Source: a virus | Direction: 5' to 3' (one strand) | Length of the DNA: 38,005 bases | IMG/VR virus record: IMGVR_UViG_3300025949_000057 | Coordinates: 1 to 38,005 of that record | Shown here: positions 3,010 through 38,005 of the stretch, in pieces | Layout of the letters: every line of letters begins with the position of its first letter | Position numbering within the stretch: the first letter of the stretch is position 1 | Position numbers and translations under genes: made by a program | The notes under the pieces: model-generated | What the model was told of the DNA's origin: nothing | The model's database searches: none | Seen by the model: the letters and a program-made list of their open reading frames with translations, nothing else

Positions 3010-3327
3010 TTAAATCGCTAAAGTATTTTGTGCTATAGCTTTTACATATTTTTTTCTTTGTCTCCATGAATATTTTTCCTTTTCTCTTTTATGATAGGGG
3101 ATATTCTTACACCAATGCCAGAATTCAACTATTGATGGAATTTTATGTGAATATCTTTTGGCAACTCTTAAACCATTTCTAATTTCTTCTCGTGTCAAAT
3201 CACGAAGAGCGGATTCATAAATTGTTTTCAATAAAGAAAGATTAAATCCCGAAAAATGATATTTATCTCCATAAATACCGCGAAATGCTGCATAAAGTTT
3301 ATCTAATAATTCAGACGTAAATTCCAT
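3010..3327 (-). CDS. replication protein P-like (helicase-loader family), small
   Basis: 105 residues from ATG 3327, chosen for GGAAATTAAGC upstream; a longer start at 3372 is possible. The pattern LLDKLYAAFRGIYGDKY, then EIRNGLRVA, then a Pro-containing segment and EFWHWCKN resembles the helical domain of phage P-like proteins that load the host helicase on the origin. The C-terminus is strongly basic. It lies about 7 kb along the circle from the O-like initiator. Assignment by pattern only; an unrelated HTH-like protein is possible. Confidence 0.5.
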   Translation of the reverse strand: MEFTSELLDKLYAAFRGIYGDKYHFSGFNLSLLKTIYESALRDLTREEIRNGLRVAKRYSHKIPSIVEFWHWCKNIPYHKREKEKYSWRQRKKYVKAIAQNTLAI

Positions 3328-3463
3328 GCTTAATTTCCATATATTCAAATCAATGTCAATAGTATACAGCAAATATGACCCTGACTTATCCCCAATTTCT
3401 GTGGATAACTCGGTGTATAACCATGAAAAATTAATAAAGATTAAAATTTGTCCTAAAAAGGGA
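3328..3463. other. divergent intergenic region
   Basis: Region between the leftward P-like gene and the rightward early operon. It is AT-rich and contains TTATCCCCA near 3390 (one mismatch to a DnaA box) and tgtggataa at about 3400-3409. A leftward promoter for the P-like and lysis genes may lie here, but I found no convincing -35/-10 pair. The rightward promoter is listed separately. Confidence 0.4.
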
Positions 3464-6281: not shown

Positions 6282-9200
6282 TTAATTGTTTAAATATGTG
6301 AAATTAAATAATACAGAGCTATTATTTGCAAATGCGGTATTTGCTACCCCGCTTAATCCTCCGCCATTATAATTTGTGGAATCAATATTAGCTGTTGTAG
6401 CGTTATTGTTAACTTGTAATACCGGAATAAAACCGGCTCCCACTGTAATGGCTGAAGGAACAAACAAATAAGCTGTTGAACTGGCATTCGCCCCAGAAGT
6501 AGTTGGAAGTCCAGTTAATGTAGCATTTCCAGTGCTAGACCCTTTGTTACTCAATGTAATTGTTCCCCATACTTGAGTCTCAATCGACCCATTGGGATAA
6601 GTTAAAGTCCTATAAAATCCTGTTTGAGTTGAATAAGTAATACCTGTTGTGCCACCACCAAAAGCAAGTGCAGGAGTAAATGAAGTAACACCACTTACAG
6701 ATGGAATATTAACTGTTCCAGATGGGAATGTTTTTACACTGCCACCAATGCTCAATGTATTAGCAGCGGAATTAACTGCCGTAATATTATTTTGAACAGC
6801 AGAAGGAAGTGTCGAACTGATAGAAGGAACTCCCGAACCGGAAGTAATTAAAGTTCCATTATTGGCTGTGGCTAATCCTGTTACTGTATTTGATCCATTA
6901 GAATATAATAAATTACTCGCCGTATAAGTATCGGAAAAAGTAGATGTCGAAACAGCCCAATTTGTCCCATCTGACCGTAAAATAGTTCCTGCCGATGTAG
7001 CTGTTGCAGGATAGGTTGCCGTTGACCAACTTGGAGCAGCAGTAGCACCCGATCTTAATATTTGACCTGCTGTTGAAGTTCCAGACAAAATAGCTAAAGC
7101 AGTCGAAGTTGAATAAACAATTCCTCCATTGGAGGCAGTTAAACTTGCATTCGTACCTCCTCTGGTAAGACCAAGTTGCCCTGTCCATCCTAGTGTAAGA
7201 GAAGTTGCTGCTAATAATGCAACAGTCGGTGAACCTCCCAATGTTAAAGTCACATTGGTATCATCGGTTTTAGTTAATGCTGAAGGAGTTGGCAATTGAC
7301 TCGTGGTTGCTAATGTTCCACTCGTCGGAAAAGTAACGCTCGTATTACCTGTTAATGTTCCTGTAAAAGTAAATGCACCGCTAAAGGTTGTATTTCCTGC
7401 AATACTAAATGTATGAGAATTTACTGTTAATCCTTCATCTGCATGTACAATGCCATATAAATAAGTATCCGTAAGATTACCTGAACGACCAATTCTACCA
7501 ATAAAAGATTCACCCAAAACACCAGGATTGCCTAGTAAAAGATTGTTTCTTTCAGATCCCGTATAATTTTGTCCAGCTCCACTTCCAATACAAATATTTT
7601 GTTGACCATCAATTAAATGTTGTAAAGCAGAAGCTCCAATCGCAATATTGTCAAATCCATTAGTTAAAGTATTTAAAGAAAGAGTGCAAACAGCCACATT
7701 ATTTTGCGCAGAAGCTGCGATATTCTGTAAAGTTCCCGTTCCTATCCCTATATTATCATTTTTAGGGCTACCACTTGTGAAATTACCTGAATTTGATCCA
7801 ATAAATATATTATCTGTTCCAAATGTATGAATAAGTGGACTGCCGTTTTGGGCAATGACGCCATTTGTTGAAGTGGTAGTCGTATTAATATTTAAATCTG
7901 GAAGATTTAATGTTCCAGTCAATGTGCCACCTGTTAAAGGCAAATAACCTGGAATAGTTAAACCTGTTGGCAATGTTGAAGATAAACTAGGAACACTTGA
8001 ACCATTTGTTACTAAAACACTATTTGCAGCTGAAGAAAGTCCTGTTATTGTATTATTAGAACTTGAATAAAGAAGCTGATTAGCGGTTGTTGTTGATGGA
8101 TAAGTAGCTGTTGTCCAAATAGGCGTAGTCGCACCTGCTGATTGGAATAATTGTCCTGAACTTCCCACCGCAGAAAGCGCCAGTGCTGAAGCAGTTGAAT
8201 AAGCAATTGCTCCATTAGAAGCGGTTAAACTTGCATTAGTTCCTCCTCTGGTAAGACTAAGTTGCCCTGTCCATCCTAGTGTCATGGAAACAGCTTGTAA
8301 TAAAGCTGTTGCCGGCGTTCCACCCAGTGTCATCGTAACATTAGTATCATTAACTTCTGTCAACGCAGAAGGAGTCGGTAATTGCGCCGTGGTTGCTAAT
8401 GTTCCCGTTGTTGGGAAAGTGACATTGGTAGCGCCGGTATAGGTTTGTGTTACTGCAAAATTTCCGACAGTTACAAAAGAATTAGCAAAGTTTAAATTTC
8501 CTGCATAGGTTGCCGTATTTGATCCATTATTAACTCCCGTCCCACCTCTTGATCCGTCTAACTGACCAGTCCATCCCAATGTTAATGAAGTTGCTTGTAA
8601 TAAAGCAGTAGTAGGAGATCCACCCAATGTTAAGGTTACATTGGTATCGTCGGTTTTAGTTAATGCAGATGGTGTAATACCATTACTAGGAACTGCCCAT
8701 ACACCGTCTCCTCGCCAAAATGTAGTATTGGATGCACTTGTTCCTGAATCTAAATGCGTTACGGCTAAATTACCCGAAACATAAGAAGCCAAATCAATGG
8801 GAGTTCCATTCCATAAACCAGTAGTTATTGTTCCAAGTGTTGTAAGAGAAGTTTGTCCTACATAAGTGGCATCAATATCTATTATAGGGGCAACTCCACC
8901 CGTAGATATTATACGATTAGCAGTCCCTGATACGCTTGTCACAAAACCGCTTGCTGTGCTATCTACATAGGCTTTAGTGGCTGCATCTTGCGGAGATGCA
9001 GGATTGGACATATTGTTTATTTGATTAGCGCCCATATTAATAGCGCCCGTCATTGTGCCACCACTTAAAGGCAAATAACCCGTAATAACTATTCCTGGCG
9101 GTAAAGTCGTACTTAATTGAATACTTCCACTTCCATCTGTTGAAAATAAAGCATCTGGAATAAGTGATATCATAGAAAATTGATCTAAAATAGGACTCCA

Positions 9201-11938: not shown

Positions 11939-14074
11939 TTAAGGTAAGGTTGGATTGCCTAGACAAGAATTCGCCGTAAAATGTAATGTAATATATCCAT
12001 AATTAGCAATATCTGTTGTGGATGTAGGACCAAACAAAGGCGAAGCAGTTGCTCCAATATAATTTACTGACTTATTGGTAGCTGATAATTGAGTCCAAAA
12101 AGTACCGATAACTGCATTAGCAGCCGTACTTGGAACTCCATTTATGAAAAATGTAGCCCTTACACTTCCTGCTGTTCCATCTAAAGCATAAACGTTCATT
12201 ATTGGATTTGCTCTTTTTACTGTATTAAATTGAAATCCAAAATTTGTCGGATAAAGAGTCGCATGTGATCCACTTGTATATATTCCTTGTGGAAATGTAA
12301 GAATAGAAGCTCCACTATTTGTTCCAGGGACGACACCGACATCATATGATGTCTCATAATAAAACTGACATTGACCTAATACTTCATCAAATGTTTGAGG
12401 AACAGCTTCAAGAGCAAAATCATTTGGAACAAGGGAGACTTTATCAACAATAATATAATCTACTGCCGAAGTAGAATTCATATTATCCAATGTATAAATT
12501 ACTACTCCCAATGTTTGCGTTTCTCCTAAACTAGCATTCCCAGGCAATGGGAATCTATTAAATGGGACTTCTAAAAATATACCAGCCACACTGGGTGTTA
12601 ATGTGTAAATAGGATCATTTTCAGGCGCGATAGATGACCAATTCACAGAAAATGTAGGATCTGTCGAAGCCCATGAAGCGATTGGCTCTGTATTACTTAT
12701 TGTTGCTGGTAAAGCAGAGCTTGCAATTAAGCGCATTTTAAATCTCACAGAAGTTGAATGAGCTGAATTAAGCCTAATTCTAACTAATGCAGAAAGATTA
12801 TAATTCCAATAAGGCAAGATGGTGGAAGGATCAATGTATTGGATTAATGCAAATTGAGTCTGAGTAGCGCTTACCACCGGATTTATTTGCAATGCAAACT
12901 TATCCAAATTACTAGTAGAAGAACCTGTTTGTAATTGACTACCTGCTTTTTGATACATAATAGTCTGATCACAAATGTAGGACGTTTGCGCTGTTACAGT
13001 TGACACCGTTGTTGTAATAAACTGAAATGGATTTAATGAAAAATTCCATCCCACTAATAATGAGCTTTTCGGCTGAATTAGAATAGAATTCTTATAAACA
13101 TGAAATTCTTGATCCACTATTCTTTCATAGGTTAATTCATTGAATGGCGGAATAGAACCACTATCAAAGTTTGTAGGTAATGGAACACTTTGTCCTGTTA
13201 GTTGGATATTAGTTAATGTAAGCGTTCCCGAAGGAGGAAGAACAAAATTAATATTAACAAATGCATTTGTCCCCGTCGTCGCATTCATAGAATCAGGCAT
13301 TGTTACCGCATTGGAATAGAATGCCAAAGACCCCGTTAAAATAGAAGTAGTAGGGAATAGATTTACTGTGCTACCACCTGAATCAACATAATTGACCGTT
13401 AAAGTCTGAGATGCACCGGTTGCAAATGCCAAGAAAGAAATGGCAATCGCTCCTCCACTAAATATTGCCCCATTGTTTGAAAATGTTTGCTGCAATGTAG
13501 CCGTCGTCCATCCAGAATTAGCAATAGTCAAATAATAAGGAGGATTGGTACTAATATCGGAATCGCCAGGATTCGCAGTTTGCGTAATAGTCGTTGTGCC
13601 TGCGCCTGTTAATACTAAATTCCAACCTGGGGCAATGGATAATGTATAGGTGCTCGATGATCCTTGCGTATAGACAAAAGGACTAGTAAAAGAAATATCT
13701 GCAAATTGAGGATTCGTGACTAAGCTTGGGGCCGTTAAAAGCAAAGTGCTTGACGGAGTACTTTCCGCATTTCCAGGTGAATAATTCTGTATGGGATTTC
13801 CAATTAATGGATCAGCTTGAGTGGGCCCTTTCCTAATTTCAATCCGATAAACCAATGTATCATCAAAATAAAGATTGTCGGGCAGCGTACCATTCGCATA
13901 AAACTGAATCGGATTAGACCATGGAATCATGCCATTTGGGTCTTGGTAAACATTTTGTGGCAAATAGGGCAATGTATTCGTTAAAAAGAATGCATAATAT
14001 TGATCATTTAGGGGTCTTCCTATTTGATCAACCATATACCATATAGGATTAGCGCCGCGAATGTAGGATGTCAT
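11939..14074 (-). CDS. tailspike / fibre-anchor protein (711 aa)
   Basis: The N-terminal 100 residues (GANPIWYMVDQIGRPL, QNVYQDPNGMIPWSNPIQFY, GTLPDNLYFDDTLVYRIEI) follow the logic of the P22 tailspike head-binding domain: a short beta domain specifying quantity, values and NPI/NG turns. The remaining 600 residues are beta-rich with Ser/Thr and no Cys cluster. I infer a tail-attached spike or the adaptor for the downstream fibres. No glycosidase motif was identified. Confidence 0.6.
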   Translation of the reverse strand: MTSYIRGANPIWYMVDQIGRPLNDQYYAFFLTNTLPYLPQNVYQDPNGMIPWSNPIQFYANGTLPDNLYFDDTLVYRIEIRKGPTQADPLIGNPIQNYSPGNAESTPSSTLLLTAPSLVTNPQFADISFTSPFVYTQGSSSTYTLSIAPGWNLVLTGAGTTTITQTANPGDSDISTNPPYYLTIANSGWTTATLQQTFSNNGAIFSGGAIAISFLAFATGASQTLTVNYVDSGGSTVNLFPTTSILTGSLAFYSNAVTMPDSMNATTGTNAFVNINFVLPPSGTLTLTNIQLTGQSVPLPTNFDSGSIPPFNELTYERIVDQEFHVYKNSILIQPKSSLLVGWNFSLNPFQFITTTVSTVTAQTSYICDQTIMYQKAGSQLQTGSSTSNLDKFALQINPVVSATQTQFALIQYIDPSTILPYWNYNLSALVRIRLNSAHSTSVRFKMRLIASSALPATISNTEPIASWASTDPTFSVNWSSIAPENDPIYTLTPSVAGIFLEVPFNRFPLPGNASLGETQTLGVVIYTLDNMNSTSAVDYIIVDKVSLVPNDFALEAVPQTFDEVLGQCQFYYETSYDVGVVPGTNSGASILTFPQGIYTSGSHATLYPTNFGFQFNTVKRANPIMNVYALDGTAGSVRATFFINGVPSTAANAVIGTFWTQLSATNKSVNYIGATASPLFGPTSTTDIANYGYITLHFTANSCLGNPTLP

Positions 14075-24045: not shown

Positions 24046-24050
24046 ACTGA

Positions 24051-24123
24051 CTCCCCGAACTGGACTCGAACCAGTGACCTATTGATTAACAGTCAAGTGC
24101 TCTACCAGCTGAGCTATCGGGGA
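24051..24123 (-). tRNA. tRNA-Asn(GTT)
   Basis: 73-nt cloverleaf: acceptor TCCCCGA/TCGGGGA with discriminator G, D-arm GCTC-AGCTGGTA-GAGC, anticodon loop CTGTTAA (GTT), T-arm ACTGG-TTCGAGT-CCAGT. The anticodon stem has one C-T mismatch at its base. No CCA is encoded. It lies on the late strand between the accessory cassette and the small-gene cluster. It likely supports Asn-rich structural proteins (the fibres and tail hub are rich in Asn). Confidence 0.95.
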
Positions 24124-24136
24124 ATGTTAAGATTAT

Positions 24137-33085: not shown

Positions 33086-33121
33086 TCCTCAAGTTTAAAA
33101 CATTTGCGTATCCAAAACAAT

Positions 33122-33466: not shown

Positions 33467-33495
33467 AGTATAGTAATACGGGAGGGGTTTGTCAA
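33467..33495 (-). promoter_or_regulatory. early leftward promoter with shared motif (PL-like)
   Basis: Minus strand TTGACA (33495-33490), 17-bp spacer, TATACT (33472-33467), near consensus. On the opposite strand the spacer starts with GTAATACGGGAG (33473-33484), the shared early motif. The promoter overlaps the end of the initiator gene. Confidence 0.75.
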
Positions 33496-34085
33496 CTTCC
33501 ATCCAAAACTTTCCCTAAATTTAATCTTTCCCAATCTGGATGCCCTGGTCCCCAGAATTTTGCTGTTTGTTTTAATCCATGTGGTTGAGATTCACCCCAA
33601 TCATGCTTCTTTTGATTGTTCTTTTTTTGATCTTCTCTGCAAAAGCTTTTATTAATATTCATTATATTATTATTATTTATATTATGGGGCCGATTCTCCG
33701 GCGGGGGGGAGCCGATTCTCCGGCGGGGGGGGGCCGATTCTCCGGCGGGGTTATCCACAGGAGCTGATTCACTTTCTATTTCAACATAAAGGGAAGGTTG
33801 AACTAGAAATCTTTGACCAGTCTTCTCATTATTCATTCGTTTAAGGACATTGTGTTTTTCAAAAAAGACAAAAGCCTCTTTAATGGTGCTTTCAGATTTA
33901 ACACCAGTCCGCTCCATAATGGCTTCATTGGTTAAAAAGCATTTTTTACCCCGATGCCAAAATTGAAATATAGTTTCATAGATGCGCAAAAAACTGAGGG
34001 TTATTCCTTCTAAATCCCAAATATTTGATGGAATAACGATAAATGCAGGTTTATAAGAATTTGAATCCGTATCAGATGTGCTCAT
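33492..34085 (-). CDS. lambda-O-like replication initiator (197 aa)
   Basis: ATG 34085 has AAGGA 5 nt upstream; an earlier in-frame ATG at 34106 is less likely. Residues 15-110 (AFIVIPSNIWDLEGITLSFL, CFLTNEAIMERTGVKSESTI) form a winged-helix-type DNA-binding domain as in phage O-like initiators. The middle (about 118-145) is low-complexity because the iterons are encoded in it. The C-terminal part is basic. Contains its own predicted origin, as lambda O does. Stop lies inside the PL-like -35. Confidence 0.65.
   Translation of the reverse strand: MSTSDTDSNSYKPAFIVIPSNIWDLEGITLSFLRIYETIFQFWHRGKKCFLTNEAIMERTGVKSESTIKEAFVFFEKHNVLKRMNNEKTGQRFLVQPSLYVEIESESAPVDNPAGESAPPRRRIGSPPPENRPHNINNNNIMNINKSFCREDQKKNNQKKHDWGESQPHGLKQTAKFWGPGHPDWERLNLGKVLDGS
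33646..33759. other. predicted replication origin inside the initiator gene (iterons, AT tract, DnaA box)
   Basis: Three exact 18-bp copies of GCCGATTCTCCGGCGGGG start at 33689, 33711 and 33733, a 22-bp period (two helical turns). Each has the dyad GCCG/CGGC. A perfect DnaA box TTATCCACA (33751-33759) abuts the third copy. On the other side 33646-33685 is 40 bp with a single G/C. The order in the gene (iterons, then AT-rich) is that of lambda ori. Confidence 0.75.
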
Positions 34086-34120
34086 AAAAATCCTTCCCAT
34101 GAACATTAATAGTTGATTGT

Positions 34121-34179
34121 GGAAATGAAATCACTATAATGATCATAGTGATTTCATTTCCTATGCTCATAGTAATTTC
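34121..34179. promoter_or_regulatory. inverted repeat with three half-sites upstream of the initiator gene
   Basis: Perfect 17-bp inverted repeat GGAAATGAAATCACTAT / ATAGTGATTTCATTTCC (34121-34137, 34145-34161, 7-nt loop). A third half-site ATAGTAATTTC follows at 34169-34179. It sits about 40 bp upstream of the initiator ATG. Likely an operator or secondary initiator-binding site; a leftward promoter may overlap it. Confidence 0.7.
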
Positions 34180-34348: not shown

Positions 34349-34368
34349 TTAATTGTTGATATTGATAT

Positions 34369-34543
34369 GGCAATCGCGGCGTTGACAGTGAAACGCACAG
34401 ACCAATGGTCATAAGGTGGTTAGCTCTGGAATGGGTCGAAAGATGCCAAACTGAAACGCTAACAATAGAATATACGGATTATAAATCCGTTAGGTCATAA
34501 GACCCGATAACCGAATAGCCGGTGCAATTCCGGCCGATTGCCA
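34369..34543 (+). ncRNA. tRNA-like RNA copy 5 at the head of the early operon
   Basis: GGCAATCG (34369-34376) pairs with CGATTGCC (34535-34542), then A. D-arm-like GCGTT/GACAGTGA/AACGC (34379-34396). T-arm GCCGG/TGCAATT/CCGGC (34518-34534). An anticodon-like arm ACGGA/TTATAAA/TCCGT (34474-34490) resembles tRNA-Tyr but would give AUA. A variable hairpin GGTC/ATAA/GACC follows. About 75 nt lie between D-like and anticodon-like arms, with GACC/GGTC, GTTAGC/GCTAAC and a GAAA-loop hairpin. No CCA encoded. Probably a 5' leader processed out as a stable RNA. Confidence 0.6.
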
Positions 34544-34565
34544 CTTAATTAAATAGGATAGAAAT

Positions 34566-37868: not shown

Positions 37869-38005
37869 ATGACCAAAAAAACCAAACTCATTCCATTTGA
37901 TTATCAGAAATATAAAAATGGTGCAAAAGCATATACTAAAGATGGTAGAGAAGTGGTGGAATGTCATTTATTCGAAAAAAGAAAAAAATTTAATCTAGTA
38001 GCACT
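37869..38005 (+). CDS. N-terminal part of the junction-spanning protein
   Basis: ATG 37869 opens MTKKTKLIPFDYQKYKNG, which runs to the window end and continues at 143 after the 126-bp overlap is removed. Same gene as 18-422. The stop of the previous gene (TGA 37865-37867) is 1 nt away. Confidence 0.85.
   Translation, partial: MTKKTKLIPFDYQKYKNGAKAYTKDGREVVECHLFEKRKKFNLVA
37880..38005. repeat. direct terminal repeat, right copy (identical to 17-142)
   Basis: Exact copy of 17-142. The preceding base differs, and 37861-37879 supplies the true start codon that is missing at the left end. This shows which end carries the native sequence. Confidence 0.9.

Follow-up and report, generated by a model that had tools for sequence, protein, structure and literature searches.

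The question raised by this locus is whether a short array of G+C-rich repeats, situated in the middle of a phage gene, acts as a replication origin, as a site of transcription control or simply as coding sequence. The locus belongs to the IMG/VR virus record IMGVR_UViG_3300025949_000057, and the whole stretch analysed, positions 1 to 38,005 of this record (38,005 nucleotides), is referred to here as the window. Identical 126 bases were found near both of its ends (17-142 and 37880-38005), which suggests a complete, probably circular genome with a size of about 37.86 kb; the start of the window carries 16 stray bases ahead of the end repeat. The G+C content of the genome is 36.8%, and a tRNA-Asn (anticodon GTT) is located on the minus strand at 24049-24124 within the structural gene region.

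The repeats are situated in an open reading frame on the minus strand (33492-34106) which encodes an O-like replication initiator of 204 aa. The first-pass annotation, made from the DNA letters alone, had assigned them to an initiator gene with a product of 197 aa; this length is correct when counted from the second ATG at 34085. The assignment agrees with the profile matches of the protein to PHROG_270 (replication initiation, E 2e-6) and PHROG_678 ('replication initiation O-like', E 3e-6). The N-terminal part forms an HTH_36-like winged-helix DNA-binding domain (33792-34055, minus strand), as shown by Pfam and by an AlphaFold2 model of residues 1-112 with a mean pLDDT of 83. HTH_36 was matched in all 14 members of the set A1, the match of the window protein itself falling under the curated cut-off. 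In a winged helix the recognition helix is expected to be the third, and in the model this helix spans residues 65-77 of the 197-aa form (33855-33893, minus strand). A profile search against solved structures brought up only weak matches to winged helices (CodY, MarR), two of 14 members gave a weak Phage_rep_O match (best E 0.03), and no RepA_N domain was present among the Pfam matches listed at E 0.1. The C-terminal part of the protein is unusually short. It contains the motif TAKFWGPGHPDWERLN (33519-33566, minus strand), which is common to L020 and partly to L006, and a scan with its FWGPGHPD stretch found only the contig of L020; as a predicted docking peptide, this motif may dock a partner. 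A near-perfect palindrome of 41 bp with 20-nt arms, 95% complementary, is positioned just upstream of the initiator start (34121-34161) and is probably an operator, as predicted from its form and place. It is joined by a partial copy (ATGCTCATAGTAATTTC) within 34121-34179.

The array is composed of three exact 18-bp copies of GCCGATTCTCCGGCGGGG on the plus strand, starting at 33689, 33711 and 33733, and Tandem Repeats Finder (TRF) described it with a period of 22 and 97% match. The three copies and the 22-bp periodicity claimed by the first-pass annotation were thus borne out. No further copy of GCCGATTCTCCGGCGGGG was found elsewhere in the window or on the reverse strand, and Rfam detected no known RNA at the array. 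The longest word occurring at least three times in the local 1.4 kb was 18 nt long, compared with 11 nt or less in 200 dinucleotide shuffles, which ruled out a chance repeat. The dyad GCCG..CGGC noticed earlier is present in each copy, and the best description of the unit is an imperfect palindrome of 16 bp. In the direction of the gene, iteron 1 covers 33732-33747, iteron 2 covers 33710-33725, and iteron 3 covers 33688-33703 and ends 1 nt from a conserved A+T motif; all three (33688-33747) lie inside the initiator reading frame. The array has 79% G+C, so its description as a GC-rich element in an AT-rich genome is accurate. Since 22 is not a multiple of three, the copies are read in three frames, as had been pointed out, and are translated as PAGESAPP, RRRIGS and PPENRP. 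The spacers of 6-7 bp between iterons are G runs, on either strand, in about eight family members (the window at 33686-33751, L015, L020, L021, L022, L023, L028 and L038) and are ordinary in the others.

On one side the array adjoins an A+T tract of 36 bp (33650-33685, 97% A+T), a probable DNA-unwinding element which reads CATAATATAAATAATAA... on the coding strand. The tract had been predicted in this position with a length of 40 bp; its presence was confirmed and its length corrected. At the opposite end, the predicted perfect DnaA box, TTATCCACA, was found on the plus strand at 33751-33759, abutting the third copy of GCCGATTCTCCGGCGGGG. Two perfect DnaA boxes are present in the 38 kb, for which base composition predicts 0.47; the other is at 3400-3408. 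Cumulative GC skew, a check proposed along with the first annotation, was calculated on the circularised genome after detrending. The minimum was observed at 33,118, near the array, and the maximum at 14,015, near the point opposite it on the circle; the two are separated by roughly half the genome. The slope shifts at about 14 kb within a block of same-strand genes, and gene orientation partly confounds the skew, which gives moderate support to the array as a replication signal.

Relatives were collected to find which features of this layout are conserved. The first search of viral contigs returned 14 relatives and a profile search added more, and when other members served as queries in later scans, no new contig came up. 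The matches include one from Legionella londiniensis and another from a metagenome bin; in the order to which the Legionella match belongs, the initiator was present in only 1 of 143 genomes. After removal of duplicates, 27 distinct family genes were retained, window included. Searches by tblastn of 50,697 named phage records, in which the window protein or the N-terminal domain of L033 was the query, gave no relative, nor did a search of 72,556 plasmids with the protein of L043. The O-like family matches of some relatives were far stronger than that of the window (E 5e-27 in L009, E 3e-22 in L005) and cover most of their length.

Two to four imperfect palindromes of 16 bp were found between the winged helix and the A+T motif in 26 of the 27 members, the exception being L040, which has no clear palindrome set. 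The sets were taken from a finder, and a few (L005, L016, L020, L021, L028) were corrected by eye. In 17 members the last two iteron spacings are exactly 22 then 23; in six more the last spacing is 23, and two show 23 then 22. The window has spacings of 22 and 22 plus one extra base ahead of the A+T motif, so that the frame is maintained and the first iteron stays equally far from the motif. In the members with palindromes, the last copy abuts the A+T motif. The layout is constant and the palindrome sequence varies, with half-sites of the types GTCCG, GTCTA, TATCG, TACCG, TCTCG, GGCCG, GGGCG and others. The linker residues encoded by the arrays are unrelated between relatives and the palindromes and the 22/23-bp spacing are kept, which fits the earlier suggestion that DNA rather than protein is conserved here. 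Apart from this, the combination of N-terminal domain and origin module was found joined to several unrelated C-terminal parts (L005, L009, L013 and others), some of which match primosomal or DnaD-like loader families.

The A+T tract keeps its position and its codon choice in the relatives, where the motif reads CATAATATAAAGAA..TAAATAAAGAA. One lysine of the motif is encoded by AAG in 20 of 21 members (background AAG 27%), another by AAA in 19 of 19, and an isoleucine by ATA in 11 of 11 (background 30%). Such strong bias to single codons points to constraint on the DNA sequence itself. A synonymous-codon likelihood test over the whole tract was not significant (z 1.4), the signal being confined to particular positions. 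When 2.9 million contigs were scanned with a pattern built from the motif, 16 stretches were obtained, 11 of them on family contigs already known; for four of the 16 (L061, L068, L070, L073) no initiator was found at the motif. In the twelfth, L075, short repeats precede the same A+T motif near 8658-8682 and the N-terminal part of the protein is different, hinting that a second type of initiator may use the same unwinding motif.

The variation in half-sites was compared with the variation in the protein. Pairwise half-site difference correlated with difference in alignment columns 65-74 with r 0.69, and these columns correspond to the start of the third helix in the AlphaFold2 model. With the divergence of the rest of the domain regressed out, the partial Mantel r was 0.58 and none of 5000 permutations was as high, a figure to be taken as a guide and not as an exact probability because the members share ancestry. 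The partial correlation of the same columns remained at 0.50 with close relatives thinned and at 0.56 with one member per half-site. Alignment windows starting at columns 65-68 ranked top and the median alignment window gave 0.06; half-site divergence thus follows the N-terminal half of the predicted recognition helix and is nearly unrelated to the rest of the domain. L014 illustrates this at close range. It is 76-79% identical to L009, L016, L043 and L044, which have the helix sequence A(V/I)IY(K/R) and the half-site GTCTA; L014 itself has TQIYD and GTCCG and in both resembles the more distant members with SQIYE. The covariation is computational evidence that the initiator would read the repeats. 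Owing to the shared ancestry of the members, the observations behind it, like those behind the codon counts, are not fully independent.

The genes next to the initiator were also informative. A P-like helicase-loader gene lies directly downstream of it in L005, L009, L013 and L016, with strong matches in the last three, and a DnaB-like helicase gene takes this place in L015. Judged by predicted products, the order of initiator and loader in the relatives is an O-P arrangement like that of lambda. The sole loader candidate of the window is a weakly P-like gene of 120 aa on the minus strand (3010-3372; PHROG_109, E 0.0017), and the second DnaA box is situated 28 nt upstream of it. On the probably circular genome, this gene is about 7 kb from the initiator, across the junction. 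A perfect DnaA box in the linker was found in 5 of the 27 members (window, L005, L006, L014, L020), compared with 0.02 expected from shuffles. Four of the five have in common a longer form of the helix-turn region and may have inherited the box; L014 is the exception, and its box is positioned between iterons. DnaA boxes beside iterons are usual in plasmid origins, and the one next to the array is therefore a plasmid-like trait. Since 22 of the 27 members are without a perfect box, the family at large may do without DnaA; a role for it is plausible in the box-bearing members and would not be general to the family.

A side finding was a structured RNA of a family not in Rfam, about 120-190 nt long, with three plus-strand copies in the window (34363-34551, 2219-2378 and 1692-1835). 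Its closing stem is GGCAATCG/CGATTGCC, with compensatory changes in 7 of 19 consensus pairs and a tRNA-like T-arm beside the 3' strand. The copy at 34363 has a folding z of -3.8 and the copy at 1698 ends ..CAATTGCCACCA. Other contigs of the initiator family (L066, L074, L064, L080-L083) carry homologues of this RNA, and ARAGORN called no copy in the window, L064, L066 or L074.

The conserved layout, the O-like match, the covariation of helix and repeats and the O-P neighbourhood of the relatives all point to the same reading. With high confidence, 33650-33759 is proposed to be the phage replication origin, situated in the part of the initiator gene which codes for the interdomain linker; the initiator would bind the iterons and open the tract, and DnaB would be loaded. 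Dimers of the winged-helix initiator are predicted to bind each 16-bp palindrome, with the three iterons facing almost the same side of the helix. Once bound, the array would strain and open the A+T tract with the help of host DnaA at the adjoining box. Host DnaB would then be loaded at the opened tract through the C-terminal part of the initiator and the P-like loader, and theta replication would start.

Other readings of the array differ in how well they account for these features. Operators are typically palindromes to which a winged-helix protein binds, so the array could serve the initiator for transcription control with the true origin elsewhere, and the gene does have a separate 41-bp palindrome upstream of it. 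However, the array sits in mid-gene next to an A+T motif whose codons are conserved, and the gene is O-like and in five relatives adjoins a P-like or DnaB gene; we consider the operator reading quite unlikely. Initiators often autoregulate too, and the roles of operator and origin are not exclusive. Still less probable, to the point of being nearly negligible, is that the repeats matter as protein, as a proline/glycine-rich linker spread by tandem duplication. The array does fall in the interdomain linker and tandem repeats expand readily, but the copies are read in different frames, the residues are unrelated between relatives in which palindromes and spacing persist, and the half-sites covary with the recognition helix. 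A protein-level repeat was rejected on the ground of the three frames and the kept palindromes and spacing.

A plasmid-type replicon deserves more weight than these two and is still improbable on balance. According to this possibility the locus is a RepA_N-like iteron replicon as in pSK41 Rep, with an intragenic origin and a DnaA or primosome route, and without a P-type loader; the place of the origin would be the same and only the route of loading would depart from the one proposed above. The origin of pSK41 is central in rep, the N-terminal winged helix of Rep binds four Rep boxes, and the origin codes for the linker that forms the central part of the protein (PMC5703833). In the related pPR9, the Rep N-terminal domain is assigned to pfam13730 (HTH_36), the same Pfam family as the N-terminal domain described here (PMC5703833). 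In the window, a DnaA box abuts the array. Among solved prokaryotic initiators, Foldseek ranked the staphylococcal plasmid Rep structures (4pt7, 4pql, 5kbj) and DnaD (2v79) highest; however, the E-values were weak, and scores were similar for many unrelated winged helices. The family also differs from the staphylococcal RepA_N plasmids in its other C-terminal part, its phage context and the lack of RepA_N among the Pfam matches listed, and clear P-like loaders adjoin the gene in close relatives.

The proposed phage origin was then compared with known systems. The first-pass annotation had called it lambda-type, a term which holds for the layout and the inferred mechanism and is not supported for descent. 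In lambda, O dimers bind palindromic iterons in gene O and open the neighbouring A+T region (PMC5043065, PMC7466680). Both origins have imperfect-palindrome iterons with arms of about 5-6 bp in the middle of the initiator gene and an A+T region downstream. Lambda has four iterons, spaced by 20, 24 and 23, whereas three are present here, and the P-like gene of the window genome is not adjacent to the initiator. When the family profile of the N-terminal domain was compared with lambda O, no homology could be detected (hhalign probability 0.1%), and no DnaA box was found in the O-gene region of lambda, unlike in the phage studied here. With the O proteins of Pseudomonas phages, PAJU2 among them, L009 shares 43% identity in its C-terminal half. 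From the PHROG_678 and PHROG_270 initiators the family is set apart by an N-terminal domain without tblastn match in the phage records, and the window protein by its short C-terminal part. In the RepA of V. cholerae PLE, the DNA-binding domain at the N-terminus varies together with semi-palindromic iterons, the C-terminal part is retained, and the specificity modules swap (PMC8263062). The PLE iterons, in contrast, are about 30 bp and intergenic, and PLE RepA belongs to the RepA_N family. As intragenic iteron origins and the covariation of PLE initiator and iterons were known, the kind of system is known; the family is a new case of intragenic iteron origin and an unusually clear record, left by nature, of how specificity changes.

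For the family as a whole, we lean slightly towards a fixed chassis (22/23-bp spacing, codon-constrained A+T motif and sometimes a DnaA box) combined with a switchable 5-bp half-site set by a few residues of helix 3, the two evolving apart. If this is true, the members would represent mutually compatible, separately addressed origins in which specificity can switch by few substitutions, and their recognition helices would provide a natural, nearly readable code of initiator recognition. One clade would combine lambda-type iterons with a plasmid-type DnaA box. The 26 natural pairs of initiator and iteron array, with about a dozen half-sites, make the change of origin specificity directly testable in a setting where the gene encodes the origin, and the A+T motif together with the geometry may allow origins to be located in uncultured phages that have no match among named phages.
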